This document shows positions 3,406-64,000 of a stretch of DNA of 64,000 bases, piece after piece (positions within the stretch are counted from its first letter, which is position 1; each line of letters opens with the position of its first letter). The notes beneath the pieces are model-generated. The model was given only the letters and a program-made list of their open reading frames with translations, ran no database searches and had not been told where the DNA came from. Position numbers and translations under genes: made by a program. The DNA comes from Trebouxia sp. TZW2008 (taxonomy: Eukaryota; Chlorophyta; Trebouxiophyceae; Trebouxiales; Trebouxiaceae). Location of the stretch: the NCBI GenBank assembly GCA_002118135.1, contig BDIU01000326.1, positions 124,001-188,000 on the forward strand. Reading direction: 5' to 3'.

Positions 3406-3718
3406 GAAAGCTTACAAAAAGCGCGACTGAGAGCAATCGACATGAAGCCGCTGAGTCCTCAGCGGGTCGCTGGTCAGGTGGGGTGTAACATTGTTGAGAT
3501 TGAGGTTGATGTGCCTGCACAAATGGTCTTCGCACCTCCCTGAAACGAGGTCCAGAGCTTTGCGTTCTACGTCGACATGTGGTTGCAGGCGTTTCGAGCG
3601 TTACGTGCGCTGAGCGATCGCCTGTGCTTGGCAGTGTGCTTGATCTCATAGAAGGGCAGGAAGCATCAGGCTTGGGTCACTACTCAGCTAGAGTCCCTAA
3701 GTCTCGGCGCAAGCAGGC
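3406..3718. promoter_or_regulatory. Shared divergent promoter, MATE gene / dephospho-CoA kinase
   Basis: This 313 bp gap separates two start codons facing away from each other (minus-strand ATG at 3405, plus-strand ATG at 3719). It must hold both 5' UTRs and the core promoters. No TATA-like box is obvious at a fixed distance. The region is richer in CG dinucleotides than the introns around it. The role is inferred from position only. Confidence 0.55.
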
Positions 3719-9344: not shown

Positions 9345-9941
9345 AGGGCTCGATCAAAATCCTGGTATGATGCGGAAACAAGCCTGTCCTGAGCCGTGCT
9401 GGTGCTGCTGCGGTCCTACCGAAAAGTGCCTGTACCGTTACTGAGCCCGGACCTTACGGCGACCTTGACTTTGGCCCCGTCACAGTGCGAGGAAGCGTGC
9501 GAGATTACTCACAGCCATACACTGCAACCGAGAATATGCGTAGGTCACGAGCGATGTGCGCGCATCGCAGGCACTGCAAAGCAAAGTCGACAGTCTATGT
9601 CGGGTTTTAGTCATGCAGCTATTATGTAAAGAGAAACGCCGTGAAGCCTTTCGCATGGCGTCGATTGAGTGTCGATAGGTCAAACTCGCACGGCGTATGT
9701 ACATGTTCCAAGTCGGGTGACACAGGAGTCGATAGGAGTAGCCGGCGAACGCGCACCAGAAGCTACGATGATGCATCAAAATCGATGACTTGTAGATGCG
9801 CAATGCATGAGCAGTGCAGAGGGCACACGATCTTCCGCAAGCGCACGGATTGTCTCCTTCTTGAGGGCTTGAACGTACCATCGGAACTAGACGAGCACAA
9901 ATAACCCCCCTAGTTGTCCATTTCGGTAGCAGATCGGCAAG
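9345..9941. promoter_or_regulatory. Shared divergent promoter, L2HGDH / VPS13
   Basis: The 597 bp between the two outward-facing ATGs (9344 minus, 9942 plus) should contain both promoters and 5' UTRs. It is richer in CG dinucleotides than the introns of either gene. Frames that cross it carry no family signature. No specific element was recognised. Confidence 0.55.
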
Positions 9942-12900
9942 ATGCTTGAGGGACAAGTCGCATTCTATCTCAATAAGTACCTGGGAAACTATGTCTACGG
10001 GCTTGATCCCCAGTCCTTGAAGATCTCTGTCTTCAAAGGCGACGTCCAGCTGAACAACTTACACCTCAAGCCTGAGGCGTTGAACGCATTGAACCTGCCG
10101 ATTACGGTCAAAGCCGGGCTTCTCGGAAGCCTAACTCTGAAGGCAAGTCAGGAGCTGACTGTAGCCATGTTGACAGTACGCATCTCCGGGAGCTGAGCGA
10201 GTCAGACTCTCACATCCCTGGTTGAAAGCAGGTGCCCTGGGCTAGCTTGGGACGTGCTCCGGTGCTGGTCGAGCTAGACCGTCTTTACTTGTTGGCTGGT
10301 CCTAAAGAGGAGTTTGAGGAATCAGACGCCTCTGTTGAGCAGGTTTGTGTTGCCAACAACGCATCCATCATGTCAGATCTTCATGTTCGTCTCAGACGCT
10401 GTCGATTTGCCAAAGACTGACTTGGTTGGAGACAGATGACTGCTTCTGACAATGCCTCTCTGAGCCCCCTGAGCCTGCCTATCTTGTTTTCTACTGAGAT
10501 ACACATCACTGTGATTACCTGCACGTGAAATGGTCAGATTGTGAGGTCTCTTCATCTGCAGGACTTTGATGAAGCTGAGCAGCAAGCAAAACAAAAGAGA
10601 GTGGCAGATGCAGAACTAGCCGCAACTCAGGTACAGCCTTCATAGTTCCCCTTGTACAGTTACAAGCCATTTTATCTCACCTTGCACATCATGGGCTTCA
10701 ATGCACATCATCATCACACAATCAATGGGCAGTATTGCACATCATGGGCTTAAATGCGCATCAGCATCACACAACAATCAATGGGCAGCATTGCACATCA
10801 TGGGCTTCAACGCGCATTGGCATCACACAATCAATGGGCATCATTGCACATCATGGGCTTCAATGCGCATCAGCACCACACAACTCATCGATATCAGTGG
10901 GCACGGCTTGTCCAACACCAGTTCTGGTTGCATATCCAGGCTTTGTGTCACCACTTGTATAGTTGCAAGCTGATTGTCTCAGAGCTGGGTTGAACTCATC
11001 TTGCACATAAGGGGTTCAATGGGCGATAACATGTCCAACACCATTTCTGGTTGGCTGTTCAGGTCAAGAGCAAGCTTGCTCAAGAGGCAGAGAAAGACGG
11101 AGGTGGGAGGCTGAAAGCCATTATTGACACTGTGATTGGCAACCTTCAGACCTCCATTACCAATGTGCACATACGATATGAGGTGAAGCCAATATTGCTG
11201 ACCTTATGTTCCTGTGCTAAGGCCTGTTGCCTCACTTACAGGCTAGCTGCAAATCTGCTCTAAACATTGTTGCAAAGTTCAAAAGTCTGGAATGGACTGC
11301 ATGCTGACATCCTGCCTGACCTTTGGCGCTTTTTGCAATTCAGCCACGGACAGATAGTGCTGAGGCTTGACGCATTTAATGCACAACAGTATGCAGGTTT
11401 GATAATGTCAATCTTAGTGCGCTTTCTTATGATGATGCAGGATGACACCAGCAACCCTGGCGTGCCTTTTGCATGTGGTGCGACTCTGGAGAAGCTCAGC
11501 GCTCACACTGTGGACGAGGAAGGTCATGAAGCTTTTGTCAAAGACAACCCATTGTCACTGCTCAGAAAGGTCTTGTCCTATGTCTGTGCACACTGATGCT
11601 ATTTGATCCATTGCTACGACTGCTACTTGCTCATATGTGCACCCTGTCTACGCACATTCATGATTCTTTGGCCAATGCCATGACTGCTACCGGTCCTTCT
11701 TTGCATGCTCTGCAGCAGACTGCAGGTCACCCTTGGGCAAGCTTGTCTCCTGCACTCACAACAGGCTTTTGGTCATGGAGGCTAAAGTACTTGAGGGAGC
11801 ATACTGAGAATACACATGCCAAATTACTGCCGACACGGCATGCTGCTGCCATGATGCCCTGCAAGTGACACATTTGTGGACTGCATGATTTCACCCACAC
11901 ATCAAACACAGAGACATGGTACGTCTTGTGCAGTGTGGGCTCAAGACTTGGTCTGGCATGTTGCCTGCGCATGACCGGTCATTAGCTTGCGATATGCCAG
12001 CGCTCAGTACTCAGAGTGCTGTGCAGGCCTGTCTGCTGAGACGCTTTGCAGTCTGTTTTGATGTGGGCAACATGCTCTCATGCTGTTGCTAGTTATTGGA
12101 ATCGGATACCTCAAGACTGCTGTGCTGTGCTTTGCAGGCCTCGCAGCTGAGACGCTTTGCAGTCTACTTTGACGTGGGCAAGCCCCTTTGGCAGCCCAAG
12201 AAGGCCTGGGGTGACATGCTGGCATACGACTGGGATCAGCTGTTCAAAGTTGGCATTGCAGCCGATAGTGGGCGGCCCCTGCAGGGCAGCACGTCACAGC
12301 CCCAGCCCTCAAACGCTGCAGACCGTATGTATGTGGTCAAGCCTATTGACGGCAGGCTGCAGTATCTGAGGCGGGGTAAAAATGTGCGGCAAGGAGAGTC
12401 TGAAGCGATTCAAGAGGCTGACTTCCACTTGCAAAGAATTGCCTTAAATATATCGAGTGAGTCCCTTCTGTGACGCTGAAGTCAAGCTGGCCCTGTAAGA
12501 CAAGACTTGGGCTACACACACCTAGTACCTGTGCTAGGATGTGCAACTTGGTATTGTTCTGGAGTGTATGCCTTCTTGTTGTTGTCAAGTGTGTAACTTG
12601 TTGTTGTTGTCAAGCGCAGTCTTGTATTGCTGCAGAGACTCAGTACCAAAGCCTGCAACGCATGTTGATGAGTCTTCAACGCATGCAAGCAGGGCCTCAA
12701 ACACCCAGACCCAAGACCCAACCCCAATGTATTGATTCACAGCTGCACAACTCCTTTGACAAACTTCTCTTCCCTTGCTGCTGCAGAAATTCAGTACCAC
12801 AGCCTGCAGCGGCTTCTAGATGAGTGCTCGGCGTATGCAACCAGGGCCCCAAACGCCCACCTCAGACCCAAAACCCAACCCCTACGTGTTGCAGGACAGG

Positions 12901-15900
12901 TGCACAGACTGCATTGACAAACTGCTCATCCCTTGTTGCTGCAGAGACTCAGTACCAGAGCCTACAGCGGCTCCTAGACGAGTTCTCAGCATATGCCACC
13001 AGGGCCCCAAACGCCCACCTCAGACCCAAGACCCGACCCCAACAGGGTCGCTCAGCCGCCAAGTGGTGGCGCTATGTAGGCACCGTTGTACGTCGACAGC
13101 AAAGGAATCACATGTCGTGGCAGAACATCCAGCTTGTCTGCAGTCTGCGCAAGGAATATGTCCCTCATTACATCAAGTACGCTGCACATGTTCTCTGCCA
13201 CTGCTGTTAGGCGTAGCTGCATTGAAACAGTTCTCTGCACATCCTACTGGTCTGTCATCAGTACAAAAGCTTGCACTGTCAAAGCTGGACATATCGCTGA
13301 ACATTTGCTGTCACTTCTGCATCTGGAGATACAGAGCACATGCATTGGAGACTCAGAGGTCACTTGGGCACGAGGCTATCTGTGACACCAGTCACACCTA
13401 ATGCTGCGCGAGTGTACATACAGAGTGCATGCATTATGACAGCAGGTAGCTGGGACATCAAGTGCTGTGGTCATTGCATAAGCTGATGCTGTGAGTGCAG
13501 ATGCTTGCAAGACAACCAAATAGGTGATTGTACTGCATGCTGCGAGTGCAAGTGCTTGCAAAACAGTCCAATGGGTGTTTTTTATGCGTGCTGTGATTGC
13601 TGATGCTTGCAAAACAATCAAATGGGCGTCTTTCATGCATGCTGCGAGTGCAGACGCATGCAAAGCAACCAAATAGGTGGTTCACATGCATGCTGTGAGT
13701 GCAGATGCTTGCAAGACAACCAAATGGGTGGAGATGAGTACACTGTCAGAATGGATCAGCAGCTGCCTGAAGCCACCATACTCCTCTTCAGGCGTCTTGC
13801 CCATGCCAAGGTACGCCTTCTTGGCTCAGCAAATGCAGACACAACCTTTGCATGCAACATGCAAATCTGTAACGGCAGCACTTACTGTTGCACCCTCAAA
13901 GCACGCCCAATGGTTGACAAAGAGCAAAACTCTGCCTGGCATCCTGTGAATTTCCAAGACAAGGCTTCCAAAGCCACACAGCACTGACTGTGGCTGAGCA
14001 AAGACTGGGATGGTGCAGGTGGACCGTGAGAAGAAAAGGGCTGCAGCGGCCGCGGCAAGGGAGAAAAGGGAGCAGGCCGCCAACAGCTGGTTTGGCTGGC
14101 TGCGGGGCGCCACGAAGCCAACAGTATGTTACACTTCTTCTGCTTGTTTTCCACCAAGCTATGATACATTGCCTGTGATGCAGTCAATTTTGTCATGCAC
14201 AGTCAGCAGCTGGCTTGGCACATGATGCTTGGTCATTCAAGCTTGCATAGCAAAATGTGTCGCTAATGGCATTGCTCATGGCAAAGTGCATGACGAATGC
14301 ATGACGTTCATGCGCTCCTGCGATGTCACACATATCAACAGTTGGGAGCATGTCCTATTGCGCCTTGGGTCACCTTGCAGCAAGCTGCACATGATGTGGA
14401 AATTTGTGCGCATTTGTATGACCTTTCTGCCAACTCAGTTGATTTCCTGTCCCTGCCATTGTGACTGAATTGTGTTTGATTGCAAGCGTTTCAGAACTTC
14501 AAAAATGCAGTATGGAGCGTACATATACAGTATGATCATTAGCATGGGTGGCGCACAAAGAGGAAAATGTTGAGGCTGCTGGCAATGACCTCAGTTTGAA
14601 GCCTTGTAGGGGTCATGAAAGCTGCAATGCGTAATGCAGGAAGAAGAAAACGAGGAGGCTGCTGCTGATGACCCCAGCATGGAGGGCGAGCTGACCAGCG
14701 CAGACTACCGCAAGCTGCAGAGCCTGGTGGACGAGCAGGAAAGAGCTGTTGAAGCTGGTGGGTGGTTTCCTTGCACATTCATCAGTCTACTTGTGCAGCA
14801 ATTTTGCTGGCCAACTTGCGTCTTGAATGCAAAGCTGAATGAGCTTTAGCGCTGTGTATGTTTTAGATGCTGTATGCTCGCATTCTTGAGGTGGCAAAGC
14901 TCTCAGCCTCGACCCTGAACAGCTTGGGTGCAGTCTGACAATTGTCTGTAGGCTTTCTTACGGGTGTCCTTCTATTGTGCCATGTTGACTCAACCGAGCT
15001 GACGAACATGCGCAGGCAAAGAGACTCCCAACAACTTGAGGATTAAGATCAATCTATCGATAGGCTCTACAGTGCTTGGGCTCCTGGGCAGTGACAACAT
15101 GACAGAGCTGCTAACAGCAGGCTTGGACAACCTCAAGTCTGTTGTCAATATGTACCCAGAGACCCTGGAGGTCCTAGCAGCTGTTCAGGTGACGTGTTCA
15201 TCTGTCTGAGTGCATTCTGGGCAGTGAACGCATGATGGCGCTGCTTGCAGCAGGCCTGGACAACTTTGAGTCTATGATGAACATGCACACTGTGCCCCTA
15301 GAAGTCTTGGCAGCTATTCAGGTCCATTTGTCTTTGTGCATTCTGGGCAAGGACAATATGACAGAGCTGATGACAGCAGGCCTGGACAACCTCAAGTCTG
15401 TTTGTTCATTCATTCATTTCATTGTAAACGTGGGCTAGGCAGGCTCAGCAGGCCCATCTAGGTACGTACAGAAGCAATCTACTGTCTCCAACCAGTTCGA
15501 CCATCTGCTAACCTAAATCATTTATATTGGACATAAATGGTTTAGGTCAGCACATGGTTGTTGAGTCTGTTGTCAGCATGTACCTTGAGACATAGCAGCT
15601 GTGCAGGTGTTGCATACATGTCAATGTATCCTGCATGTTTTGAACATTGTGATCACATATACAAAGCACACATGCCAACATTTCTGGCAACCTGCTGCAA
15701 CAAATGCATGCCAAGCTGATGCCAAGTCCCTGCTTGGGGAAAACAAACCTTGTTTTGGACAGAGTTGTTTCCTTTATGGAGATTTTCCAAAGCTCATTTG
15801 GTGAAAGCTCAATCAAGGCTGCTTGAGTTCGGGGCAGACTGAAGCTTTCAAATAGCTGCTCTTCTTATCCATTGTGAGCTTCTTCAAGAAGTTTCCAACG

Positions 15901-18900
15901 TGGCCTCAAAAGGTTTATTGAACTCTGTTTGTAATGTAGTGCATTGGCATACTCTGACAGTACAACATACATGCAGCCATGCATGCTCAAAGCAGAGCAA
16001 TGTCAAAAAATAGTTATGAGTGTCCTTCAGATCTGATTGCACATATTGGCAGAGCAAGCTGCCCACTTACCACAGCAATCTAGTAGATTATACCCATACA
16101 AGTACAGAGGACAGGGACATAGTTCATACTTGGCAGGTCGCAATGGCTGTTGTGATGCGCAGGTTGTTGGGGCTGCAGCGCCTGAGGGCACTTTGCTCAC
16201 CACTGGCACCTCTGAGCATCACAGGTTCCTGTTTTTGCTGGTCTGCCTGCAATAGCAGGGTTATACAAAATCAGTCAATCACCCAGTGAGTAGTTGTCAG
16301 ATCTCAGAGGTTGTTTGTGTGCAGGCTGTTGGGGCTTCAGCACGTGAGGGAACTCTAGTCACAGCAGGCACTCCCGAGCACCACAGATTCCTGTGCTGGT
16401 CTGCCAGAAACAGCAGGGCCTTGTAAGATCAGTAAGTCGACCGTATTTGTCTGGTCTCAGAGGTTGTTGTGTTGTGCAGGCTGTTGGGGCCGCAGCGCCT
16501 GAGGGTACTCTGCTCACAACAGGCAACTCTGAGCATCATGAATTCCTTTGCAAGTCTGCCAGCAATACCAGAACCTTGTAAGATTAATGAGTACCCCAGT
16601 GAGTACTTGTCACGTCTCATAGGTTGTTGCGTTGTGCAGGCAGTTGGAGCCGCAGCGCCTGAGGGCACTCTGCTCACAACAGGCACCTCTGAGCATCATA
16701 GGTTTCTACGCCGCTCTGCCAGCAGCAGCAGAGCTCTGGAAGGTAAATGGATTGCTTATCAAATCTTTGGCTTGCTGTGACATGCTCACTAAAATTGCAA
16801 ATGGCAGCAGCCAATGTTGTGGCTCAGTGCTATCATGTGGCCTTGTGTCAACAACGTTCTGGCTAAAGCATGTAATTACTCTCTCTCTCTCTTTCTTCTC
16901 AGTAGGGCATTCTGCTGCAAACAAGCTTTTTGGGATCTGTCAAGATTTGCATCAGCGGCACTGGTGCACATCGGAAGCTTGATTCATGCGCTGCATGATT
17001 ATCTGATGCCTTGATGCTGGTACTGAAGCATGCGTCAATGTCCCCAATGGGTTTTTACAAGCCTCAAGTATGTCACCTTGCCAAACTTAGATTGTCTGCA
17101 GGAACTGACATGGAGAGCATGGACTCTGGGTCACAAGCATTGGCTGTGCGTTACATCCAGAAGCCACAAGATGGCCACGCAGACACCGTTGCCAAACTCA
17201 GCTTCAGTCCCAGCTACGTCACCTACAATCCTGTCAGCATACAGAATGTCCAAAGCTTCTTTAACACTGGAGAGGCAAGCTCTTCTCATCAATCCTGAAA
17301 ACGAAGAGGGCACTGCACGACTGTTTTGCTTAACATGCAAAGTTTAAGAGCATCGGTCGCCTTTGCGGTCTGGCTTGCAGTTGCCTTACCAGGGCTGTGT
17401 GTCTACCCTGACCGCTGGCTACTTGCATCGTAGCTGAACGAGTTTAGCCTTTCTTGTCTTGAATCTTGTGACTGACACATCATAGCTATAGCCATCAACA
17501 ATAGGACCACAGCATGCTGCCATGATGTGAGCTGCAAGCTGACAGAACCCCATATGCAACAGTGCATCCATTGCACGCCTTGCGGACTGATTTTGTCCCT
17601 CTAGCTCTGTGATGGCTGTTGCTACGAGCAGTAGACTCATCTGCATTGGGTGCTCAATTATCAGTCCAGGTGGAGAATGCGTTTGAGGCAGCTTCCAAGC
17701 AGCTAGTAGTGGCGTTGAAACAAAAGCCCCCGCTGGATCTTTGAGCACAAAAACTGCAAGTCTTGCAGGTTGCTCAGCTGTTCTCCTGCTATGTAGGCAG
17801 TGGATTTGTCCGCACTGGGGGCACAAGCACTGGCTCAGGTGGAGAAGGCGCGCAAGGCAGCTGCTGAGCAGCTGGCAGCTGCCCTAAACCAGAAGCCCAA
17901 ACTGGACTTGACTTTGGAGCTGGACGCCCCCAAGATTGCAATTCCTGTCCCAGCCACTGAAGATGGCAGAGGTACGCCCTTTATTTTGAGACAAGAAATA
18001 TGTTCACAGCATCAGCTTGGTGCAGAGCAGAGCACTTTAAGTGACCCCCAAGATTGCAATCCCTGTCCCATCCACTGAAGACGGCAGACCAGTCAGCACA
18101 CTGCATCTGCATATGCCACAATTCCGCATTTGCTGCTGCGATGTTTGCTGCATCAAGGTCTTTGCATTTGCATGCGCCACAAGGCATCTGAGAGACAGCA
18201 TATGCATCCAGCTCTCTGCATAGGACTGCTGCAGGAGTTGCTTCATAACTGCACTTGGATCTCAACAGCCCTCAATGCAACTTCTGCCGCATGCTGCGTC
18301 GCTTTCCAGCTGTGGTACTCTTTTGCATACCACATGCACTGCTGACTGCACATGAGCAGTTACGGTAAAGCATGTACTGCTGCTGCAAAGCTTCAAAGAG
18401 TAAATACAACTCCCTGGAATCCTTCCAGAAAACTGTTCTGTTCAGAACGAAATGAGATGAAAGGAACAATTCCAGGGGTTTGTTCTTTTCAGACTTTGTT
18501 TGTTCATTCTGCGGAATGAACTGAAATGACAGCAACAGTTCCCTAAAACTCTTGTAGCCTAAGCTGGCTGCTCCAGTCTCTGGTCAACATGCAGGCAAAC
18601 TGACACTAGTAGCAGACCTGGGCCGCTTTGTGCTGGAAAGTGACAAGGATACTGCCGGCTCACTCCCATTGGAAGAGGTTTCCTTGTACGAGTGCCTGAA
18701 GCTAGCTGGCAGCAACATCTCAGCCTATTTAGTGGACGGCGATTTTGCCTTTTCGGCCCTTGAAGACTTGGGCAGCCAAAAGGCGCCTAGCCCGCCCCCT
18801 GAAGCTTCCTCAGAAGGCGCACACCATGTCAGTGCTGCGACAACAGCCGCCATCAATGAATCACAGGGCAAGGTATTGCACCACAGCTTTTTCACAAAGC

Positions 18901-21900
18901 AGAAATTTCTGAATGTCAAAGGAGCTGTAGCCTGGCCCACAAGTTATACCTGGCGTGAAGCTGCAGCCACAGCTCTGCTGTACTCTGAGAGAGTAGAGGG
19001 TGCTTTTGCGTCAACATAAAACAACTTTGACAGAAATGTCTGGAGGCAGTTCGTTGCTTCTGTATGCACTCAGCTGCGTCATGCAACCTCGCTGGAGTGC
19101 ATGTAAACGATGCTCATGCTCATGCTCACGCTCACGCTCACGCTCATGCACATGATGACAATGACACTGATAATGATGATGATGATGATGATGATGCAGG
19201 TGTTGGGAGGGTCTGCCGTGTTCATTCCACTGTTGGAGCGCTGTGGAGCCTCAGCAGCCCTGCAGGCAGCTAGATTCCCCCACCCCAGCCTCCCACCCAT
19301 GAGGCTCCAGCTGGATGTGCCTCAGCTGCGCTTCTTCTTCAGCCCTGCTAGATTGGGCCGCATTTTGCGGGCAGTCGACGCTGTCATGCCAGGTGAGGTC
19401 TGCTTGCATCATCAGCGCATTAGGCAATTGCACTGCATGTGAACAGTTGAGATTCCCCCACCCAAGCCTAGCACCCATGAGGCTCCAGCTGAATTTGCCA
19501 CAATTATGCTTCTTCTTCAGCCCTGCCAGATTAGGCCGCATTTTGTGTGCATTGGATGCTGTCATGCCAGGTGAGACTCATGTTTGTATCATCACGTGAT
19601 TGCAAATGCGCAACATGTAATCTCCGACACAGTGCACATCGCATAATTTTGCGATTGTGACGCATCTGAAGCAACAAAGTTTGTGGAGCTGATGCAGGCA
19701 GTGCAACTTTACATGCATGTCAATAGACATTGCATTCTGCTGCAACTTTCGACAAGGACAATCTGTTGTGCGCGGCCCTGCTCTCATGTGGACCTTCTTG
19801 ATCCAGCTATCAAAGTGCATTCTTGCTGAATTTCACGGCGATAGCAATTGTCTGCATTTGCTGAGATTTGCATGTAAGTTGACAGGCATCAGAACAGTGA
19901 GTCTGTGCTTGCAGCTGATGGCGAGGAGCACAAGGAGGATGAAGGGCAACAGCTGCAGCAGTGGAGACTGACCCCTGAGCAGGCTGGGGGCGTGCGGGTG
20001 CTGCAGTGGGGGGGTCTCAGCCGCACCACCCCTCAATGGCCCTCCAGATGGGCTGTGCTGTACCGCGGCACCCTTCACCTGTTGGAATCTGAGACTGCAG
20101 CAGAGCCACTGGAAAGCCTCAACATCTGGAACAACAGGTGTGTGTTGCTGCAGCAGGGCTCTTTAGGGTCAACGCTTGCTTGACTATCTGGCGGCTGAAA
20201 ATGGAACGCTGGATTGCCTGATCACTGAAAGTATGCAAGCTGCATACATTCTATTTGCAAGCATTGCATGTCATGTGCACTGCATGCAGTATTTGCCAAG
20301 TCTCATTACCTCTCAAGCCACTGCAATAGCTGTCAAGCTGTAAGGGCAGTCAAACTGTAAGGGCATCAGGTCTCCATGCCTGTACAGGGTTTCTCTACCA
20401 ATGTGAACGACTTTCCCCATTGATCTCAAACTGCCCACTGCAGTTTGAGATCATAATGGTGCGCGTGCATGTGCGGAGCTTTTGTAACTGTGCACAGCTT
20501 TCCAATACTGTGTGCGCACTGCAGGCGCATTGTGAGAGTGCCTGGTGATGCCATGTCAGGCACCAAGCATGTGCTGGGGATCATATCTCTGGGTGTTGAA
20601 ACTCATGATGCCAAGGACAACCCTGACAGCGTGCTGTTGCGCTTCAGCGACCATCAACAGGTGAGATACTGCATGAATGCATGTCTTGCTAGTGCTGCTT
20701 GTGCGCCAGCATACACCCAGTTGATTGACAAATCTTTGTTGCCATGTTATGGCACGTGCAATCAGACTTGGTGTCTCCCTCACAGCATGTCAAAACCTCA
20801 AAGGAGTGACTTGGAAAGACCATGGGCAAGGTATGTGTAAAGTCTTTCACTCCTGGCAATGATGTTACAGCGTGTGATCCATCATACTCACTATGATCAA
20901 TCTAATGCAGCACCAGTTTTGAATGTTGCCATGAGAGCAGTAGCCCTGTCATGTGTCCTGCAAGCATTTGATGTTGAATTTCTGGGGGGAGCAGGTTGAT
21001 GCCTGTTTTATGTACAAGCTTTTGCTTTCTCTGATTGGTCTATTTACTCGAGCTTTTGACGATGCATTTGCATTTGGATGATGCAGGCTGATGCATGGTA
21101 TTGGCAGTTGTTGAGGTCCCATGAGATGATGCAGCAGCTGGTGGGTGGGGCTGACCCCTCCTCACCCCTAGACGCTGACTGGGATGCTGACACAGCATCA
21201 GTCACCTCCACGGACTACACAGACAAGGCAGAGGAATCTGCTGGTACACTTGCATGTGACATCACACATGTGCTGAGGCTGAGATCAGCAAAGTTTGGTG
21301 CAATGCAGACCAAACTTTGTCTGCATTGCAGACTGGACAGTTAGCTGCAGTTAATGCTTGCCGCAGAACTGCTTTGTTTATTTGCATGACTGCCACGCTG
21401 CTCCTGGGATACAGCACACATAAATTGATGCGATGCCTTTGACCTTGTGGTGCATCAAAGACGCACCTGACCGGTATGTGGCCATGTTTAGCAATGGCAT
21501 TTACTGCGAGTTGCTCTGAACAATGTCGACCCTGTCCAGAATGGCTTGGAACTCGTTGTCTTGGCAAGTGTCACAGGCGATTCTCAAACTGCAAAGAGTG
21601 CACAGCAGCCACAAAGGTCACTTTCAACATCTACCACGGTTTTCTCCATTAGTCAAACAGCGTGGACTTGACGTGACTTCTTGGCTTGCTTGGTGTGCGT
21701 TGCTCTGTGCTCACAGTTGCTCACCTGATTGCTACACATACCTTACTGCAACTGACTATTGTTCTACTCAACACATAGCTTTGGCTATTTCCTAGAATGC
21801 AAGTGCTCATCAAGTAGTGTTGGTGCAGGCAGTGGTGCACAGCCACAGGTCAGCCTGCAGCTAACGGCAAGCCTGGGTGAGCTGGCCATCTTTGTGAGCG

Positions 21901-24900
21901 GGCGCACCACTGAGATTTGGTGGCCACCACAGGTCAGCACAATGCAGTTGCTTTTGCATCTTTTCGTGCCCAATTATTTTGCAACCAATGGCGTTCGTTC
22001 TGTTTGCATCCGTTTTTTAGCCACTGCATCCATATTTGCTCCAACTCTTGCATGCAGCTCGTGGCAATGCGGTTGCAGTGGTCAGCTAAAGCAAACATGC
22101 TGCCTGTAATCTGACAAGCATGACCTGTGGCCTTTGCTCCGGATGACGTACATCAATGCTGCTTTAAACCAGATGAGCTTCATGTCTGGACTTGACTGAA
22201 TTACCTGACAACCGCCCTTTGGTTTGCAAGATTTCTGGGGCTCAGCAGTCTTGGATATCCAATACGAACAACAGGCTTGCTTGTCACCTGCTGAGTCTGC
22301 GGTAGGACAACTGGGTTCAACATGCCTCACCGCATTTTGGCCTGTTGCAGTTCTCTGAGGAAGAAGATGGCGAGCCTCTCACAGCAGCTGCCCCACAGAA
22401 AGACAAATTCCCTTACGAACAAACCGTGGTCAACGTGGACAAGGAAACCAGCCTAGTGGTAGTGAGAGCCTCAGGAGGCAGTACAACAGTCTCAACTGGC
22501 CCCAGCAGCATGTCAGCCAGCGTAGCAGTTGGCTCATTTGAGATCGAGGACTTACTAGTGGGCGCAGTCTGCCTCGAGAACAGTTACTTGGCCAGATCAA
22601 GTTTGCCAGCAAAAGAAGAGTTCCATGAGCCGTCTTCAGAGCTGGGGCCAGCGCGCTCTTCAGAGGACTCAAGCCCACATCACAAGGAGGAGTTCCATGA
22701 CGCCTCAGATGATGTGCCGCAACCCGAGGGCGCCTCACAGGCCCTTGTGCTGCAATACAACAAATGGGCACCTGAGTCGCCAAACTACCGCAATGTCGAT
22801 GCTCAGGTACAGTAGCATGCAAGACTTGTACCATTTACCTTCCACTATTCACATTTAATGTCCTTTCAGATACCCAACAAGGGGGCCACAAAACATCATT
22901 TGTAACTGGCATCACCAGTCTTTGGAGTGAGTTGAGGGATAGGCACTGCCAGGCCCAAAACGATTTTGGGCAGCACTGTATGGAGGCATTTCATTGCAGT
23001 CAATCACAATACTGAAACTTCAGTGCAAGCAGTCAAGAGTCCGAATCATTGAGATGAAGTGTTAAGTATGCAATGCGCAATACATTGTTGCCAACACATA
23101 TATGGAATATGCAAACGAGTTGGGGTATCAGTCACTGATGTGATGAATATGGAGTTCCAAGTCGTCAGGAGCAAGGTTGACAATTGTCCCGGTTAATACC
23201 AGCGATGGTGTGAATGATCTGTGCAGGTGCATGCGAAGCTTCAGACCCTGTCTTCTTCTGCAACCGTCCTACCCTGGGTGCCCTAGTGGCCATTGGCGAT
23301 GACGTGAGTGCTACTGGCAGCTCCAAACCGCCAGATGCACATGTGACAACTGCAACAGTTGTTATTGGCAAGCATGTGAATGATGATGGTGATGCGCAGG
23401 TGCATGTGAAGCTACAGACGCTGTCATTCTTCTGCAACCGCCCCACGCTAGGTGCCTTGATGGCAATTGGAGATGATGTGAGTGCCACTGGGAGTTCCAA
23501 ACCGCCAGATGCGCCTGCTGCAGCCGTGCAGCAGCCCACGCCAACAGAAGACCAGGGGGGTCAAGCACCTCTGGACACTGCAGAGTCTGGGCTCACAACA
23601 GGTCTGCTGTCAGACATGTTTGCAAGAAACTGCTTGCTGTGCACAAAGTGTGTGGCATAGCAAATACTTGAGCGTTGATTATGCCATCTGATGATGCAGT
23701 TCTGTAGACAGCACGCTGCGCAAGATGTGCAGGGGACACGTATGTGAATGTGCTGAATTTGACAACTCTTTTTGGTGCAATGCTCACTGCATGCATATCT
23801 GGAGCTGTGTAGACAACAGGCGATGTAGTGATATCTATGCAAGTTCAGAACTGATCCATCATGCATGATCAAGCGCAGTTTTGCTTGTATTTGGCTTCAT
23901 TTGCAGCAAACGTCTGTAGCAATCATCAACACCATCAGACTTTCATCTTACGGTCCTTCCTGTCTGAAGGAGACTCCTTAGGTCCATCAGGCAAGTCCGA
24001 CAGAGTAGTGCTCCAGGTGAATGTGGAACTTCAGAAGCTGGAAGCCTGTCTGCAATACGATATCACTGGCACTCCACCCTTGGCGCTAGTCTCTGTTGAA
24101 GCCTTGCTTCTGCATTTCATGTGTGTACATGCATGAGAGCTGCCTGAGGAGAGCATCAATGGGTTTTCACTTTGCGCAGGCGGCTCTCTGGAACCAACAG
24201 GCAAGTCCGACAGGGTGGTCTTCAAGGTGAATGTGGAGCTTCAGAAACTGGAAGCCTGTCTGCAATATGAGTCCTCTGGCACACCACCCTTGGCGCTGGT
24301 CTCTGTTGAAGCAGTGGCTGTAGACCTGACTGTGCGGCCTGACACCCTGAAGGCTCTTGCAAGCCTGGGCAACCTAAGGATACAAGATGGCATCTTGCCA
24401 GAGGTGAGTCTGCACTATCGTACAGGCATCACACCACTCTAGGCTCGTGTCTCTGTTGAAGCTGTGACTGTAGACCGCACTGAGCGGCCTAACACCCTGA
24501 AGGCTCTTGTGAGCCTGGGCAACCTAAGGATACAAGATGGCATCTTGCCAGAGGTGAAGTGTGCACTGTCTCTGCAAGAATTGAGGATGTGTCTCAGTGT
24601 GCATGAGATGTACCAGTTTGGCAATGTCAGATGCCTCAGTATGGCCCGTGACCTGTTGAGGCGTTGTCACACACACACATGCCTGACACATCACAGACAT
24701 GAAAGTCTGACAGATTAGTCTGCCAGCAACGCCAGTCTGCTCCCCAAATGTTGAGTGCTCAACAGATCCACCCCAAGTACCCAGCACCAGACATGTTTAT
24801 CATTTTCATGGATGGCGGCAATAGTGTGCTTACTGGTGTGAAGGCTCATGACATGAATCAATGCGTTCATGTCCCAGCACTTAAAACTGGCATTCAAGTC

Positions 24901-48900: not shown

Positions 48901-51900
48901 TGGTATTTGCCTTGATAGCCTCAGCTGCTGTGTTGATCTCAGAATTTGAGTCTTTTGCAACTGCCCCCAGCACTTGCTGATTGACAAGGACTGCTGTTGC
49001 TTGCCAACAGCCTCAGGGTCATTACAAATCAGGCTAGCAAGGGCTGCACGATACACATCAAAGCCCTGTGTCAACACCATATTGTTCATCATGCTGCACA
49101 CAAATGCTGAAATATCCAACCTTGGTTCATGACTTTCAACATTTCCGACACTGATGATGTGCCTCTGCAGCAACTGGACCCTGGAGCAGCTGTGGCCAGG
49201 GGCTCCCCACTGCTGGTGCGTATGTTTGTACCCCTATGGCTAGTAAACGCCACCAACTTACCGGTTGGGGCAGTGGTGGTCGCCACTCAACCCCAAGTCC
49301 AGGGCAAGGAGCAGAAACCAGATGAGAGCAGCGCTCACGGCGGCATGCAGAGCGCTGTCAACAGCAGCAAGCTCAGGGTCATGGAGACCAGAGCCAAGCC
49401 AGCGTAAGTATTCAGTGCTGTTTTTCAGTTTCGAGTTGTTTTTCAAATATATTTTGTTTTGAGTGTTTCTACTGTCAAATCACATCATGCAGCAGGCAAA
49501 CTTTGCTGCTCTGTTATTGCTTCCTATCAGTCTTCAAGGCAGAGTTGTCCACAGCCAGCGTAAGTTTTGCTGCCAAATTTTGTCATGCAATCAGCAAGTT
49601 TTGATGCCCTGTTGTTGCGTTGCATCTGTCTTCAAGGCAGAGTTGTCCACAGCCGGCGTAGTTTGGCTGCCAATTTACATCATGCAATGAGCAAGCTTTA
49701 CTGCTCTGTCATTGCTTCCAATCAGGCTTCAAGGCAGAGACTTTCACATTTCATAACAGAAAGTCATTACAGATCTGTGCTCACCTCTCTGAAGAAAAAA
49801 GGCCAATGCCGCATTGTCACAGTGGGTCACATGACTGGCTTGTGAATCGTGCTGTTATCCTTGATGTTGCCTGACAGCAATGTTGATGGCAATGGTGATG
49901 TGTCATGCAGAAATGCTAGTATGGTCAACCCACGGGGCTGCTGACAGGTGGGCTCATTTGACATTGTTTTCACTGCCTTCTGAGGCCACAAGGTCATTGC
50001 AGCATTGACTATTTCGCCCTTGACATTTGCTGCTGGTGTACTTGAAAATGCTGATTGTGGTGCAGGGATCCTAGTTTGGTGAACCCACGGGGCTGCCGGC
50101 AGGTGGGCCCTGGGGCCATTAGCATGATGGCCTATCCCATGCAGCGCATGACCGCCTTCAAGCAGCAAGGTGACCGGCCCCAGTTCTTTGGACTCTGCCT
50201 CAGAGTAAGCTGTCACTTCTGTGTCTATTGCTGGCCTTTGCAGTTGTACTGCGAGACGAGCAAAGTGCGCAGCCTCGCAAAGTTGATCTCACCCCATCAA
50301 ACTGCATCTTGCTTGCTTTCTTGCTTGGATGAACTTGTGAAGGCTGTTTGACCTGGTTGCTTCCCTGATTTTGTATGCTCGCGTGAAGGATCTCTGTCCT
50401 GCTTGCCTTTGCATACAAGATCATTGTAAAGACTGGGTAGGAAGCTGCGGCAGGTGTGGCTCTAGCAGACAGGCGCACTTGAGTTGTATCAACTTCAGGT
50501 TTGACTCATGCTCATGAGTGACTGGATCTCACACTCATGCATGAGCACCTATCACCAACATGCTTACAGTTGGTCCCTGACTGTACTTTCTGCACCAAAT
50601 ATTCAGCTTGCGTGAATGTATGCTGGCAGATAGGGGAGTCTGGATGGGCTCCCCCGCTGCCTCTGGAAAGCAGTGACGGCAGCAACCAGCCGGACGACGT
50701 GAACACCAAGCCTGTGCTGCTGCGTGCGCGCATTCCTGAGTGGGGCACTGTGCATGAAGTTGTGGCCCGCGTGGAAATGGCTGGCAGTGGCTTTGAACGT
50801 ACCATGGTAGGCTTTCTCTTCCCCTGGCCTTGTTTTGTATTTTGACATGGTGTCAACTGGTCAACAGTGGAATTTTCTACTTGTCCTGGTCCGTGAGCAG
50901 TGCGATAGACTTCAGATCGTGTATCACAGCCCAGCAATCAGGGCGCAGTGCCTGGGTGGCCACTGGCAAGCTGCATGACGTCAGCGTGCCCGTTTGCAGG
51001 TTCTCAGGCTTCAGCCAAGTTGCATGATCTTCAATCACAATGTTAGCCCCAACACTGCTGCGCCTTCTTAGAGCGCTCAGCATGAGATCAAGCTGTCTTT
51101 GTGACAGCAAAGTTGCTGCCTTGTAGGTGCTCAGGCTTGAGCCACATGTTGTGATCTCGAACCGCACTGGCACCCCACTGCAAATCATGCACCACAGCCC
51201 AGCCACCAGAGTGCAGCGTCTGGGTAACAAGGCCATCGGGGTGCAGCCTGCACAATCCCAGCAGCCCCAGCGAACCCCTCCAGGCCTGAAGGGGGTGGTT
51301 GCTAACCCCCAACAAGACTGGACCTCCTGTATTGACATCCCCACTGGTACAAGCCCCATTAAGCTGAAAACCTATTCCTTTGTCAATTGCCGTACCCTGA
51401 AATGGATCAGAATCTGTGGTGTACGCCCTGCTCAGCACCTCTGTGATACCCTTTTGGAAGGATTAGCCTTGAGGAGCAGACATTGCTGTAGGAGCCTGCT
51501 CCTGTGCTGAGTCTTGCACCATTCTTGTGCTTGAATATCAGCTTTTCATTGGCCTTGACAATGCTGCTGTCACAACGTTAGCTGTCAACCAGCTACTGCT
51601 GTCTGGCATACTCTGCTATGTGCTGTGTGCTGATCATTGTGACTTAAACATGCTTTACAGATCATGCTGCTCAACTGACAAGGTTCGTGAGATGCCCCAC
51701 CCCCCTCCCCCCGGGCCCCCCCCCCTTGTTCAAGCTTTAGAACTAGACTCGGGATCATGTGGCATGCAGCCTCATGATGCCTATCTCATAATTCAGCCCA
51801 TTACGTACAGCAGATTGAGTCTCATCAACCTGATGTGAAAGTGATTTGCTGCACCAAGCCATTTGCGTGCGTATTTTATCAGGGCCAACTGCCTTGAACC

Positions 51901-54900
51901 CAAATGACATACTATCTGCAGGGGCGCTTGGTGTACCTGTACACTGAACCCTGAAGTCAGGCTGCCAGGCAGTGTCCCTACGCTTCTGGCCACTTCACAT
52001 TTGACCTAATCTAATCATGGTCAGCCGTCTTGCGTCCGCATGACAACACAATACAGTTTCACTGCAGGATCTCTTGGTGTACCTGAACACTGGAGCATGA
52101 AGTCAGACATCCGAGCGGTGTGCCTGCAATTTGGGCCAGTCACAGCTGACTTCCTTTTGAAGATGGTCAGCTGCCTTGTGTCTGCGTGACAACAAAATTC
52201 ATCCTGACTGCAGGGGCTCTTGGCGTACCTATACACTGGAGCATGAAGTTAGACAGTAGGGCAGTGTCCCTTCGCTTTGGCCCTGCCACAGCTGGATCAG
52301 GGGTGGACGCACCCTGGAGCCACCCCATTGAGGCCTCCTTCCCTGGGGGGGTTGAGAGCCATGTGGCAATCCCTGTGCAACCCCCTAGCCCCTCTGAGAC
52401 AGCCAAACCAGGTGCAGCTTTGCAATTTTGTGACGATACCTGTCATGATCTCCTTACTGGTTACTTGTTTACCATCTACTGTTGTGGCTCATCAGCCACT
52501 CTCAAACTGCACAAAGCTCTGCATGACACAGCAGCTCCTGTCGAACAGTCACAGCAAAGCATTCACCAGCGTTTGCCATCTCATAACATCATAGCATCCT
52601 TAGAACTTCCTGCCCATGCTTTTCCTTGTCCGGCTTGATGTCCGCTGTTCCCCATACGCGTTCCAATGTCTCTGTGCATATCCTCTGTCATGCACAGCTG
52701 ATGAGTCTGCTGAGCATTCACCCACTCATTCAAAAACGCGTGCTAGACAGGCTCAACAGGCCCAGCTAGGTATGTACTGAAGCACTCAGCGCATCTGCTG
52801 GGCAATGCAGGTGAAGCCCAGTCTGCAGGGGAGGCGGACCAGCAGAGCGGGGAGCGCAGTGTGGCTACCCTACTCACCGGCACAGGGCCCGCCTGGGAGC
52901 TGCATGGCCCCAGGGTTGCCCGCAGGCTACGCCACCGCACCAGGTTTTGCCTGCTTCTACTTGTAGCATGAGTGTGGGGTCGCCTTACTGGCTCTTATGT
53001 GTGGAGAATGCCTCTGGACTGTGTTACCAGCAGCAGTAAACGCAGCAGCAAGGTGATGAGTGACTACCACAGGACCCGCCTGGGGATTGCACAGGCCCAG
53101 AATTGCAAGAAGGCTACGTCATCACACCAGTCTCACCTGCTTCCCCATGCTTTGCATCCTGAGCGCATGACTGCCTGACTTGTTTGTTGCTGCCACCAAC
53201 CTGCAGGATGTTGGTGTTCCAGCAACTCCTTGGTCTGTGCTTCCCTGACAGTCTGCCACCAAAGGCTGTGCAAGCACAGCACTTGCAACAAGCTACAGCA
53301 CTGTACCCATCAACATCAACTGTGCCCCATGCAGTTTGAACAAGCAGGAGCGGGGGCAGTGGCGAGGGTCCTGAAGCCATGCCAGAGACAGAGGTGCTGC
53401 TTGCGCAATTGAGGTCAGCGGTATGCGGCCCAGGCTGCCATTACTAGAGCAGTGCAGTTGCTGTATATCATGCAGCTGTGTGATCAATTGTATCTCTGCG
53501 CTGTGTAGCGTGAATAGACAAGACAGCGGAGGGGGCACCGTAGAGGGTCCAGAGGCTAGGCAGGAAACAGAGGTTGTAACTTTGTTAGTGGAGCACAGCG
53601 CTGTGCGCCCTGCTACAACTGCTGCAGCATAATAGTGCTCAACCAGTTGTCCCCTGTGCAGTGTCAAATTTACTGCAAAGATTGTTCCCTTTGCAGTGCA
53701 GACAGGCAAGGGGGCACTGGGAAGGGTCCTGACGCCATGCAAGAAACAGAGTTTGTGATTCTGCGGTGGAGCACAGCGCTTTCGCCACAACTGCTGCAGC
53801 ATCATAGTGCTCGACCAGTTGTCCCCTGTGCAGTCTCAAATCTACATGCAATCCCAACACTGGTGGTTCCCGCTGCGGTGCAAACAGGCAAGGGGGCAGT
53901 GGGGAGGGTCCAGAGGCTATGCAAGAGACAGTGGTGGTGATTCTATGCTGAAGCACAGCGCTGTGCGCTCCGGGCTGCCTTTACCAGAGCAGTGCAATTG
54001 CTGTATATGATGCACCCGTGTGGTCAGTTGTATTTGTGCGTTGTGCAGTGTGAACAGACAAAGCAGCGGAGGAGGTACTGGGGATGGTCCTGACGCCATG
54101 CAAGAGACAGAGGTGGTGATTCTGCGGTGGAGCACAGCGCTGTGCGCTCCAGGCTGCCTGCACCTGGTGCTGGAAAGCTGCTCCCCCAAGGCACCCTACC
54201 TCCTGGAGAATCGGACCCCACACCCCTTTCACTACCGCCAAGCTGGCATTGGTACGTGCTGTACTCGCTTTCACCCGCTTTATGCAGAGTTTGTATGCAC
54301 TCTTGCCTCAATGTAGTCTTGACGACAAATTACTTTGGCTTTCAGAAGCCATCATGAGGCATTGGTATGGGCTGCACTTGCTTTTGCATGTTGTATTCAA
54401 GTTGCGTGTGACGTGCGCTTTTGCTCTAGTGCGAGGGACTTTTGCAAAAGCTGGATTTGGTTGTTGGAGTCATCAGATGAGACTCATGTGTCTGAGACCT
54501 CATCTCAAGATGCTGGCAACACCAGTGGAATGCGCCTCACAGGACAGCTCAGTAGCTGCCAAGCATGTGCATACTGACAGCAAGCTTTGTTTGCGGTGTG
54601 TAGGAGACTTACCCTTCCAGCCCTTGCCAGCCTACTCCGCTGCTGGCTTTGCTTGGCAGATCACAGAGAAGCCCTACCCCAGAGAGGTCAGCTGCCAGCC
54701 TATTTATTGATGCAATGCACACTGCACAAACCTGTCTGCATGCCTGAACCACAAATCCTATCTCAGGCTGCCTCTATAGACAGGGGCTCCTGTTATGACG
54801 CACTACACATACGCTTTTCTTCCCTTTTCTGCACGCCTATGCTTTCTTGACTGCTTGTGGTGCATCACAGCTTAGCTTGCAGCGCATACAGCCTGTGTTG

Positions 54901-57900
54901 CTGCATTGCTAGCACTGCCAGTGGTCCGCCCATCTCCTGAGTGCTGAAAGCTGCTGTACTGTGTATCTTTAGTAGGCTGTCAGTTCAACTCAGCAACTAT
55001 GTGAGCCGTCAAAAACAGCATGAGAAGAGTGTCTGCATTCTTGAGCAATCTGACGCAAAAGTTTGATGCAGCAGTACATGCCAAGTGCCTGGCACCAATT
55101 GTGGCAGCCAAAGCAGGCTTCAGAGTCAGTGATGGCATGCAAATACACAAGAATCCACAAAACAAAGCAAAGTTTCAGCAACGTAGTTGTATGGCTACTG
55201 CGATCATCCGCATTGGTGCAAATAGCACCAAGATATTACATTGCACTTGTATGCTTTCCCTATTCAGCCCACTGCCATACATTCAGGTGGAGGTACAGGA
55301 GGCCTATGGGAAACAGAGCCCCCAGAGGTATCCCTTGGACCCCCCTGACCCCAAGATGGTGACAGGGGAGGATGCTAGCACCCACAACCGGGGCTTGGGA
55401 GGCCCTCTTGCCAAACTGCCCTTGTCTGTGCAGCCTGGCGAAGTGCTTGTGCAGGTCTGCAGCAGATTTTCAGTCAATGCTAGACTTGCTATGCCTTGCT
55501 TTCCATGGTCAAAAGCTACACATGTTGAAGATGTTGACTGTTTGGCTGCCCGTGCAACACTTAGCTTAAGCTGCTGTGTACGGCTGGTTTTGTGCGTTTG
55601 CTTTGCCCATCACAGCCTAGCAAGGTGCTGTTGCAGTTCTGCAGCAATCACTGCTGTCATGCCTGGTAAGTTTTTCAGATGCTATGCAGTGCATAGCGCC
55701 TGCAGTGCTTGCAAAAGACGTGCTTTTGCTGCTGGAGCAATTGTGGTGCCATCTCTTGTATGCCACAACCTGCCAAGCACTTTGCACACAACAAAAAGCG
55801 TACCAAGTCATCTCTCGCAGTGGCTCACAAAACCCCACCTGTGTGTGGAGTCAAGGAATGCTGGGTCTCAATGCAGACGTTTTGCAGTCAAATATTGCTT
55901 TTAGCTGCATGTGATGTAAATGCTCTACATGGAGGACTTACAGTTCAGTCGCCACTTTCCTTTATGCCAATAAGCATGACTTGCAGATAGTGGATAGGGA
56001 GCAAGAGCTGATGTCTACAGCCGGGCTACAGAGCCTGGGGGGCGGGGCTGGGCTAGGCCGGGGCGGCCTAGACCGCGAGCTGCGCATTGTGCCAAGTAAG
56101 CCTTGAATGCACCAATTTTACGCAGAAAGGCCCATGCAGATTAGGATGGACTGTGATCTGTGCATTGTGCCAAGCTTGCCTGTGAGCACAGCAGTCTTGC
56201 AAAATGTATTGTGCATCTGATGGGTCATGCAGAACAGTATGGACTGTGACTTGTGCATGACATTAATCACGCCTTCAACACAGCAAACTTGCAACAATGC
56301 TTTGCGACAACTTCTGCCACATACACAAAGAGTCAGCTATGCACCATGCAACAAATACACCTTCAAGGCAGCAGTTTTGCACATGACTGGGTATGCAGAC
56401 TGACATGGACTTTGCCCTGTGCATTACTTCAGCAGCTGACTTACAAGGTGCTTGCACAACTGTTCATGATCTGCGTTGCAGGTAAGAAAGGTCCAAATGG
56501 CCAATCTGCTGTGCTCGGCTTAGCCTCAGCAGACGACAAGAGCGGCAATGCCTTGTATCTGTCAGTCAGCTTTGGCATGTTGGATGTGAGCATTGTAGAT
56601 CATCTGCCAGAAGAGCTGATGGCGGTGACTATACAGAACCTGAGTTTCAGAATGGCCCTGGGCATTGGCCCTGAGGGCACTTTCCAGCGGATGCAATTCA
56701 GTGTACAGACCCTTCAGATTGATGACCAGCTTTCTGCTTCAAGGTAAAGCTGCTTTGAATTGTTGGACAGGTACCTGGTCTGATGTGTTGTCACTCTACA
56801 GGGTGCAGCTGTCTGCTTATGCCTTTCACATGAACACTGTTTCCACCATCTTGCTTCTTCATCTGCACTGTTGAGCAGCCTCAGGCTCTCAGCAGCTGAT
56901 GGATTGCAACATCATATCCTGTGTGTTCACTACTTGCTAGCATTCACATGCGTCTGTCAGAGGTCATGTGCAAACTAAACATGCTGGATAGTTTGTACCA
57001 ACCTTAGGTAATGCTTGATTGTAAAGTCTGCCCAATGTAGCATGCAATGCGTATTGCAAGCAACATCCTCAGTCTATCTTGAATTCAGCTCTTGGCTCAC
57101 CTTTGATACTCATGCGCTCTTCTGTAGATTTTGAGGTGTTTTGTCACTTGCGGATGTTGCTGACGAGGATGCTGTTGGCCATCCTCTGTCTGCCCTGACG
57201 GTCATCAGCGAACAAGGCATAGCAAAATCTTGAGTTGGGATGCCTCTGAAAGCCATGTTTGGCCCTGCAGGTTTCCAGTTGTTCTGTCACCTGTTGAAGT
57301 TGCTGACGAGGGTGCAGTTGGTCACCCTCTGTTTGCCCTGACGGTCATCAGCCAACCAGGCCTGGCAAGAGGCCACACCTACTACCCGCTTATCTCCTTC
57401 CAGATTGCTAAGACCCTGCAGGTCTGCTTTCTCTGTCTTTTGTAACACTATCAGCAGCTCACACTGCATCCAGCTGTGTCTGCCTATTGCATTGCTGTCC
57501 GTCAGGCCTGGCAAGGGGCCACACCTACTACCCCCCCCCATCTCCTTCCAGATTGCTAAGACATTGCAGGTCTGCTTTCTCTGCCTGTTGTACTGCTATC
57601 ATTGTTTTATGCTGCAGTCAGCTGTCTGCCTGCTGTTCTCCTATTGGCCTGGCAAATGATCACACCTACTGCTCTCTGATCTGCTTCCAGGTTGCTAAGA
57701 CATTGCAGGTCTGCTTTCTTTGCTTGCTGTGCAACTGTCAGCTTGTGGTACTGCGGTTAGCAGTCTATTTGGTGCACTCTTATCAGCCTGGCCTAGCAAG
57801 TTGCAATACCTATTGCCCTCTCACTTCCTCAAGGACTGCCAAGACTCTGCAGGTCTGTTGACTACTTAGTAGTTCTACTGTCAGCAGACCTTGCCTGTTG

Positions 57901-60900: not shown

Positions 60901-62101
60901 TGCATTTGAGCATGCATGAAAGGCGCGGGTAGCAGAGGTGGGGCAGGCTTTGCTGAGGAGGACACAAGACGCTGGGGGCCTGGGCCCACGCCGCAAGGGC
61001 AAGCGCAGCCGCTTCCACATGGATGCCTATGAGGAGCACAGGATACTGCCAGAGGTAATGTGCGGCACCTTGCTTCCAAAATCAAGTCACCAAGTGCATC
61101 TGTCTGATCTGCTTGCCACCCTGAAGCATCACATGGGTGCTTTCAAGGAACACATGCTGCTGAAGTTCTGTGCAGCCCCTTGCTTTCAAAGTCTGTGCGC
61201 CAGTTGTAACTGCATGTTCTGCTTGCCGGCTTGGACTTGGACTTCCACATGGATGCCTACAAGGAGCACAGGGTACTGCCAGAGGTATTGTGCTCCCTCG
61301 CTGAAATCAACAGCAACTGCGTCTGTCTGCATTGTTCTGTCCTGCGTCAATCTGAGCATTGTCAGAGTCAAGGAACTTTTCTGTACAAAAGTCAAGAAAT
61401 GTGGCATGCGTGTACCAATCTTGCATGCTGTACAATCAGGTTGGCTCAACTGCAGCAACAAGCATGACTTTGCTGCTGTACACCATCCTCCATGCCCCTG
61501 CAGATGTTGCTGCCTGACTATGTCAGTTGGCATCATTTGGCATGACGGTTGTAGTTGTCTGCATAGCTTTTTGAGTGTTGTATGTGTATTTGTTTCTGTA
61601 TGTGTTTTCATGTGTGTTGGCTCTGGCACCGTTCAGCCTGATGATTGGCATCACCCCAACTTGTTGCTTGCCCCATCCAAGTTTGCCTCCTGACGCCTGT
61701 TCTTCTCATCTGTCAACAAATAGTATTTGTGACCAACAGCTGCATCATGAAGCGTGTTACTGTCCTCTGTCAACAAGCGTGGCTTGTGTGCAATGCAGGA
61801 TCAAGTGGTGATTCTGACCAACAGGTGCATCATGAAGCTGCGGGCGCCTGGGTTTGCTCAGGTGCACAAGGCTGCTGAGGCGGGCACCTCCCCAACCGCC
61901 ATCATAGACGTCCCACCCGCAGAAGTGCGCTGGGCCATCCCCTGGCAGGTATGCCTACTGCTGTTGCTGCTGCTCCTCTTGCTGTTGCTACTGCTGGTGG
62001 TGTGGCCATTTTTGGTGTTGCTGCTGCTGTTGCTGCTCTGGTTGCTGCTATTGCTGCTGCTGTTGCTCTTACACTCACTGTTGCCACTGCTGTTGCTTTC
62101 G

Positions 62102-62138
<37 letters not shown>

Positions 62139-64000: not shown

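Follow-up and report, generated by a model that had tools for sequence, protein, structure and literature searches.

The VPS13 locus

The window (the whole 64,000-nt stretch of DNA analysed here) contains a VPS13 gene of 85 modelled exons that runs on the plus strand from position 9942 to a stop codon at about 65007, its end lying beyond the window. The gene model is ab initio, trained on 270 kb of the same genome and then corrected manually with the help of six homologous proteins (P0007-P0011 and P0032), with a frame break at exons 43/44; the stop at 65007 comes from a version of the model with a stronger intron penalty. The splice signals learned were a donor of the type CAG/GTRAG and a strict acceptor, TGCAG/G (slashes marking the junctions), and in the near-final VPS13 model exons average 176 bp and introns 485 bp. 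The gene shows homology to VPS13 along its length and has a chorein N-terminal domain. Its homologs comprise 34 proteins (E ≤ 0.001), with alignments that span as much as 100% of the 3000 residues used as query, and several of them are named VPS13 or annotated with PF12624, PF25036, PF25033, or PF06101; the C-terminal part, outside these 3000 residues, was matched by tblastn. The spliced model matches proteins of Myrmecia, Coccomyxa, Apatococcus, Elliptochloris, and Symbiochloris, as well as, in part, that of Trebouxia sp. C0006. The closest named protein relatives are from Trebouxia: a 299-residue frame of the window matched four proteins of Trebouxia sp. C0005 (P0003-P0006), with 76-85% identity across 16-20% of the frame. 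These four proteins, which come from contigs of four different lengths, carry the same VPS13 exon, and several VPS13 fragments are possible in that strain; the exon query had one match in the genome studied here, an assembly of 68.5 Mb in 527 contigs. At exon 43 (37839-38330) the donor appears to be lost or shifted, and the modelled donor gives the wrong frame for exon 44; this could reflect a downstream copy recruited as a tiny exon, or an error.

Ahead of VPS13, tandem duplications also occur at positions 271-1105, 1626-2347, and 6540-6783, two of the three within a modelled minus-strand gene (1384-9518 of its span) that we take to be a likely L-2-hydroxyglutarate dehydrogenase. Two young minisatellites lie in VPS13 introns, one at 30326-30448 with a 14-bp unit (93%) and the other at 44879-44996, where a 37-bp unit is repeated 3.2 times (100%).

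Copies of exon edges in the VPS13 introns

The introns of VPS13 hold decaying direct tandem copies of the edges of neighbouring exons. When the window was aligned with itself by BLAST, 53 direct matches lay less than 1 kb apart, against a single direct match further apart and eight inverted ones; a more sensitive search (65.1 kb, E ≤ 1e-6) gave 64 near and four far direct matches and seven near and three far inverted ones. As a strict test, we compared the 85 curated exons with their two adjoining introns by Smith-Waterman alignment. A score of at least 150 was reached by 27 of the 168 adjoining exon-intron pairs (24 of the 85 exons) but by only one of 6972 non-adjacent pairs, and by none of the 168 pairs when the adjacent intron was either reversed or reverse-complemented. 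Lowering the score to 110 yielded 34/168 adjoining pairs, corresponding to 30/85 exons, where some 3.8 were expected from the non-adjacent rate; at this threshold six reverse-complemented pairs and no reversed pair passed. The original prediction that exons have copies in their adjoining introns is thus borne out by the 27/168 against 1/6972 pairs, as well as by the self-alignment, in which near direct repeats dominate. Its count of 35 of 82 exons was close, if slightly high: BLAST (E ≤ 0.1, exon overlap of at least 15 bp) detected an edge copy in the adjoining intron for 32 of the 85 exons, with 23 having one at the acceptor and 13 at the donor. The nearest copy in VPS13 lies mostly at 80-200 bp, the usual spacing originally proposed being 115-190 bp.

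These copies, all on the plus strand, are distributed along the gene. On the acceptor side, they adjoin the start of exon 6 (12016..12181; offset 111, 87% identity by BLAST) and exons 14 (17628..17906; 68% identity), 22 (23220..23517; offset 173), 26 (several copies, 26496..26847), 28 (27966..28252), 29 (28415..28740), 37 (33509..33906), 46 (39627..39919), 51 (42536..42829), 52 (43322..43557), and 63 (49891..50108). Arrays on the same side are found at exon 7 (12627..13043; two copies plus the real one), exon 8 (13486..13731; 51-bp unit), exon 33 (30956..31592; three upstream copies plus the real one, about 163 bp apart and with an AG ahead of each), exon 66 (51901..52294), and exon 68 (53341..54164; four upstream copies plus the real one, at a spacing of about 180 bp). 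On the donor side, there are copies at exons 55 (45193..45437), 59 (47318..47536), and 67 (52881..53143), a weak one at exon 51 (42896..43060), one of the end of exon 14 (17927..18088; 44 bp at 93%, with homology ending with the exon), and a tandem duplication of the end of exon 16 (19272..19618; unit 178), together with arrays at exons 11 (15084..15402; unit 133), 39 (35542..36310; three downstream copies plus the real one, unit 192), 43 (37940..38330), and 79 (61012..61293). Exon 23 has copies on both sides (23968..24570; acceptor-side offset 210, donor-side offset 150), exon 12 has three upstream copies with a unit of about 160 bp (16127..16749), and another array, with a unit of 143 bp, lies at exon 73 (57122..57885). 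The direct repeat includes both intron and exon sequence in the inner copies and in cases such as exons 16, 29, 33, and 39.

At seven array loci (exons 12, 22, 23, 26, 28, 43, and 68), the ab initio predictions included copies as exons, so that homologous proteins could be compared there. Exons 12, 22, 23, 26, and 28 were compared with five other genera, and exons 43 and 68 with three of the five, exon 68 also with Trebouxia sp. C0006, whose protein does not reach the loci further upstream. The homologous proteins shown have no extra copies at any of the seven loci; exon 12, for instance, has a single counterpart in the five homologs and exon 68 a single one in the C0006 protein. At these loci the extra copies are thus absent from the annotated proteins of the relatives, and the mature VPS13 protein seems unchanged at the loci compared.

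Exon copies elsewhere in the genome

The original prediction concerned one gene and raised the question of a genome-wide pattern. A small sample of other loci shows that the pattern is not special to VPS13. It consisted of 17 stretches, of which two flank the window and fifteen lie on other contigs, together with 15 loci of the Ras family, each about 3 kb long, all with exons called ab initio only. Of the 162 exons predicted in the 17 stretches, 27 had an adjacent copy; they were spread over 11 stretches, and near direct repeats outnumbered near inverted ones by 60 to 6. A VPS41 gene (L009; Pfam E 4e-96) had copies at 5/13 predicted exons. A gene with weak oxygenase matches, below Pfam cut-offs (L018), had them at 5/6, with up to six copies adjoining one exon, and a predicted gene that presumably includes a reverse-transcriptase-like stretch (L005) had one at 1/7. 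By contrast, the short Ras-family loci (15 among L020-L045, three of them without any predicted exon) showed an adjacent copy at 0 of 39 predicted exons. The copying process is therefore not uniform over genes, and the absence from the Ras-family loci may have to do with how long the genes are, with their expression, with constraint, or with how short the loci are. A further direct duplication, at 7144-7450 of L002, is 96% identical at an offset of 236 and lies in a predicted intergenic region; it is young and apparently non-coding.

Two other sources of such repeats deserve mention here. That the copies are an assembly artefact or merged haplotypes is hardly credible: they mostly differ by 10-30%, are regularly spaced, and reach six beside a single exon, and both the VPS13 exon query and a 501-base stretch of the window match just one place in the genome. 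Mobile introns of the introner type would be equally far-fetched, as would a gain of introns through exon duplication with AGGT sites. Although these VPS13 introns are made of local repeats, as such an origin would have it, each copy resembles its neighbouring exon rather than exons elsewhere in the gene, the window contains few direct matches that lie far apart, and the two spacers that we searched in the whole genome as candidate members of a dispersed family matched only themselves (in a search that skips very common words), instead of recurring at many loci.

Long-unit arrays and splice junctions

An ordinary genome-wide tandem duplication acting at random places could also yield exon copies, which would merely be easier to recognise thanks to their conserved partner. 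To set an expectation, we placed arrays at random on the gene with its extra copies removed. Under random placement, contact with an exon is already expected for about half of the VPS13 arrays with a unit of at least 80 bp (19.4 of 37), yet 32 of them share 15 bp or more with a real exon. For the strongest arrays the figures are 26 of 28 against 15.2, and all 17 arrays that combine a unit of at least 80 bp with at least 80% identity touch an exon, where 9.0 were expected. Arrays with units below 80 bp have no such preference (2/6 against 2.1), and the same difference appears at the other loci, where, counting any overlap, 33/41 long-unit but only 7/22 short-unit arrays touch a predicted exon. 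Purely intronic arrays are nevertheless present in VPS13, and the excess shrinks when exons are masked, about 14 of the 19 arrays then found in VPS13 being exon-overlapping against about 10 expected. An exon copy also remains recognisable for longer than an intron copy. We therefore consider that the preference of long-unit arrays for junctions is likely real but inflated by this detection bias. Random placement alone, which also sits poorly with the tendency of outer homology to stop at splice sites (see below), is a possible but somewhat doubtful explanation. The abutment seen with masked exons (10 of 19 arrays at most 5 bp from an exon against 1.4 expected) is not used as support; it is partly true by construction, because masking cuts junction-crossing arrays at the exon edge.

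Decay of the copies

To follow the fate of the copies, we used 67 outermost exon-copy pairs, 36 from VPS13 and 31 from elsewhere, excluding offsets below 80. Their differences at codon positions 1, 2, and 3 number 232, 193, and 438, a third-position ratio of 2.06 (95% CI 1.81-2.34), and the 48 inner pairs give 1.86 (1.59-2.23). Since an evenly mutating copy facing an exon that changes mainly at its third positions gives a ratio of 2, the copies are overall without coding constraint and decay neutrally. As the original prediction had it, stages of decay from open to frameshifted are both present, with stops in 14 of the 67 outermost pairs and frameshifting gaps in 15. Splice sites are often retained, as also predicted: the AG is kept in 42/57 acceptor-side copies (outer 27/35, inner 15/22) and the GT in 34/49 donor-side ones (outer 16/25, inner 18/24), VPS13 and the other loci taken together. 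This retention is near the neutral expectation at about 13% change per site. At the real donor-side exon ends of this set GT is found in 27 of 29, so that a few predicted exon ends are doubtful. No rule emerged by which outermost copies would be closer to the real exon than inner ones, this being true in only 8 of 24 arrays.

Might the copies be functional alternative or mutually exclusive exons? Some are open with good splice sites, and the codon-position ratio rises to 2.78 in the 27 most similar outermost pairs (at least 82% identity) against 1.84 in the remaining 40, which could be due to mutable third positions or to some early constraint. Nonetheless, most copies comprise one exon edge only, their divergence overall has no coding bias, stops and frameshifting gaps are frequent, and the homologous proteins shown have one copy at seven loci. 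Copies that keep neither frame nor coding constraint as a set are very unlikely to serve as such exons.

Extent of homology at the outer flank

If an intron part and an exon part were simply duplicated together in tandem, both parts must repeat. Inner copies do repeat both, with an identity of 0.40-0.65 from intron base 6 on. In the outermost copies, the ten exon bases next to the junction have a gapless identity of 0.82-0.83, against 0.31-0.46 for intron bases 11-15 and values near background (0.24-0.28) deeper in the intron. Flank homology was detected in 18 of 55 outermost pairs, where 41.9 were expected under neutral decay (12 of the 67 pairs being excluded for too short a spacer or a sequence end). 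Even in the 12 closest pairs, where simple tandem duplication would lead one to expect it almost throughout, flank homology is present in three, against 5.3 to 12.0 expected over all settings, and undetectable beyond the splice site in nine. Of 31 exon sides at the other loci, 21 have a match that stops no more than 25 bp from the predicted edge of the exon, while covering 19-205 bp of exon. The reading of the original prediction, repeated tandem duplication of a segment spanning the exon-intron junction, thus holds for the repeated, junction-crossing direct copies but not for the intron part of the outermost ones, and simple tandem duplication does not account for where homology ends.

Purely fast intron decay is not sufficient. 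A divergence 2-2.5 times that of the exon copies fits the total of the 55 pairs but not the 12 closest, for which it predicts 9.8 to 11.8 pairs with flank homology (5.3 at the most extreme setting) instead of the three observed. All parts of the unit have the same copy number in some pairs but differ in others, a discrepancy to which a faster decay of introns could contribute. Three candidate explanations for the missing flank homology are gene conversion, a copying limited to exon edges, and a loss of the flank after duplication.

Under edge-limited copying, the copied piece would be an exon edge with its splice motif and the spacer would never have been duplicated; ongoing conversion of the copy by the exon would look alike. 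This would explain why the identity of the outermost copies drops past the splice site whereas inner copies keep theirs, and why so many matches at other loci end near the exon edge. Mismatches along the copies are, in addition, clustered (57 pairs, z 3.6, P 0.001), which fits gene-conversion patches but also uneven constraint. On the other hand, 20 of the 67 flanks do have homology at p < 0.05, with about three expected by chance, which makes a mixture likely, and the faster intron decay just described explains the total, though not the closest 12. We know of no enzyme restricted to exon edges, and we regard edge-limited copying as unlikely. Slightly less so, but still quite doubtful, is the broader reading in which an exon-edge-limited process, be it edge-limited copying or continual exon-to-intron gene conversion, acts genome-wide in this alga and time and again places or overwrites, in the adjoining introns, partial copies of exons that stop at the splice site. 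If that were true, a sizeable share of intron DNA would be recycled exon.

A proposed mechanism of intron growth

Our favoured interpretation, which we hold to be probable, is that introns grow by recurrent direct tandem duplication of about 80-240 bp crossing splice junctions. Such short duplications would arise repeatedly across the junctions, possibly through replication slippage or through the end joining of a repair strand that was extended too far, the latter as described for helq-1 worms (see below). Splicing would stay on the site nearest the exon body, and because of this the duplicated part of the exon would become intronic. The outer copy would then turn into a neutral, decaying pseudo-exon with a splice site of its own. 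Once two copies are present, unequal exchange or slippage could add whole units, giving arrays of three to seven. Homology may often stop at the splice site because the exon now and then converts its copy, or because the outer flank has been lost. That intact decoy splice sites are tolerated may point to exon definition.

The words TGCTG, CTGCA, and TGCAG are 6.8, 5.5, and 4.9 times more frequent in VPS13 introns than expected. As a microhomology for duplication, TGCAG is possible for the acceptor side; the donor words tested are near expectation (0.73 to 1.77), so that it is not a general answer.

Relation to known systems and significance

In tandem exon duplication, including that leading to mutually exclusive exons, exon copies also lie in the neighbouring intron. 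Here, unlike in mutually exclusive exons, they usually represent one exon edge, are under no overall constraint, and contain stops and frameshifts. The original prediction referred to duplication of this kind in animals, but the organism is a Trebouxia-like green alga. Introner elements are dispersed mobile families responsible for rapid intron growth or gain in algae; the VPS13 arrays resemble them in being a case of rapid intron growth or gain in an alga but differ in that the copies derive from the adjacent exon.

A close precedent is the potato RdRp gene, in which a tandem genomic duplication crosses an intron-exon boundary (PMC4974935). As in our arrays, the duplicated unit joins an intron's 3' end to the 5' portion of the following exon, and the new intron is made of a bit of former exon and a part of the downstream intron. 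The potato case is one young event that made a new spliced intron and altered the mRNA, whereas VPS13 has dozens of duplications, mostly old, with the protein apparently unchanged at the compared loci. The algal case differs from this precedent in their density and recurrence, together with a mature protein that seems unchanged at those loci. In helq-1 mutants of Caenorhabditis elegans, tandem duplications of about 100 bp to 10 kb (median about 1 kb) result from polymerase-theta end joining, with microhomology and occasional templated insertions at the joints (PMC8654963). They share with the algal arrays their direct, tandem arrangement and a size starting at about 100 bp but, in the part of that account considered here, show no link to splice junctions. 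Among the matches listed in our literature search (open-access titles and the beginnings of abstracts), none described densely packed copies of splice junctions in the introns of algae.

By our estimate, removing the extra units of 43 VPS13 arrays takes away about 8.1 of 55.0 kb, which amounts arithmetically to around one fifth of the intron DNA of the gene. Gene predictors should be warned by these arrays, several copies having been called as exons by the ab initio model. How introns originate and lengthen is an old question for which few cases can be caught in the act, and VPS13 alone holds dozens of decaying duplications, the majority of which cross splice junctions. A genome like this one would allow measuring the rate of junction duplication, asking which duplicate splice sites are tolerated, and testing exon definition in a green alga. 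In this green alga, a relative of lichen photobionts, the junction copies illustrate a probable way for introns to lengthen.
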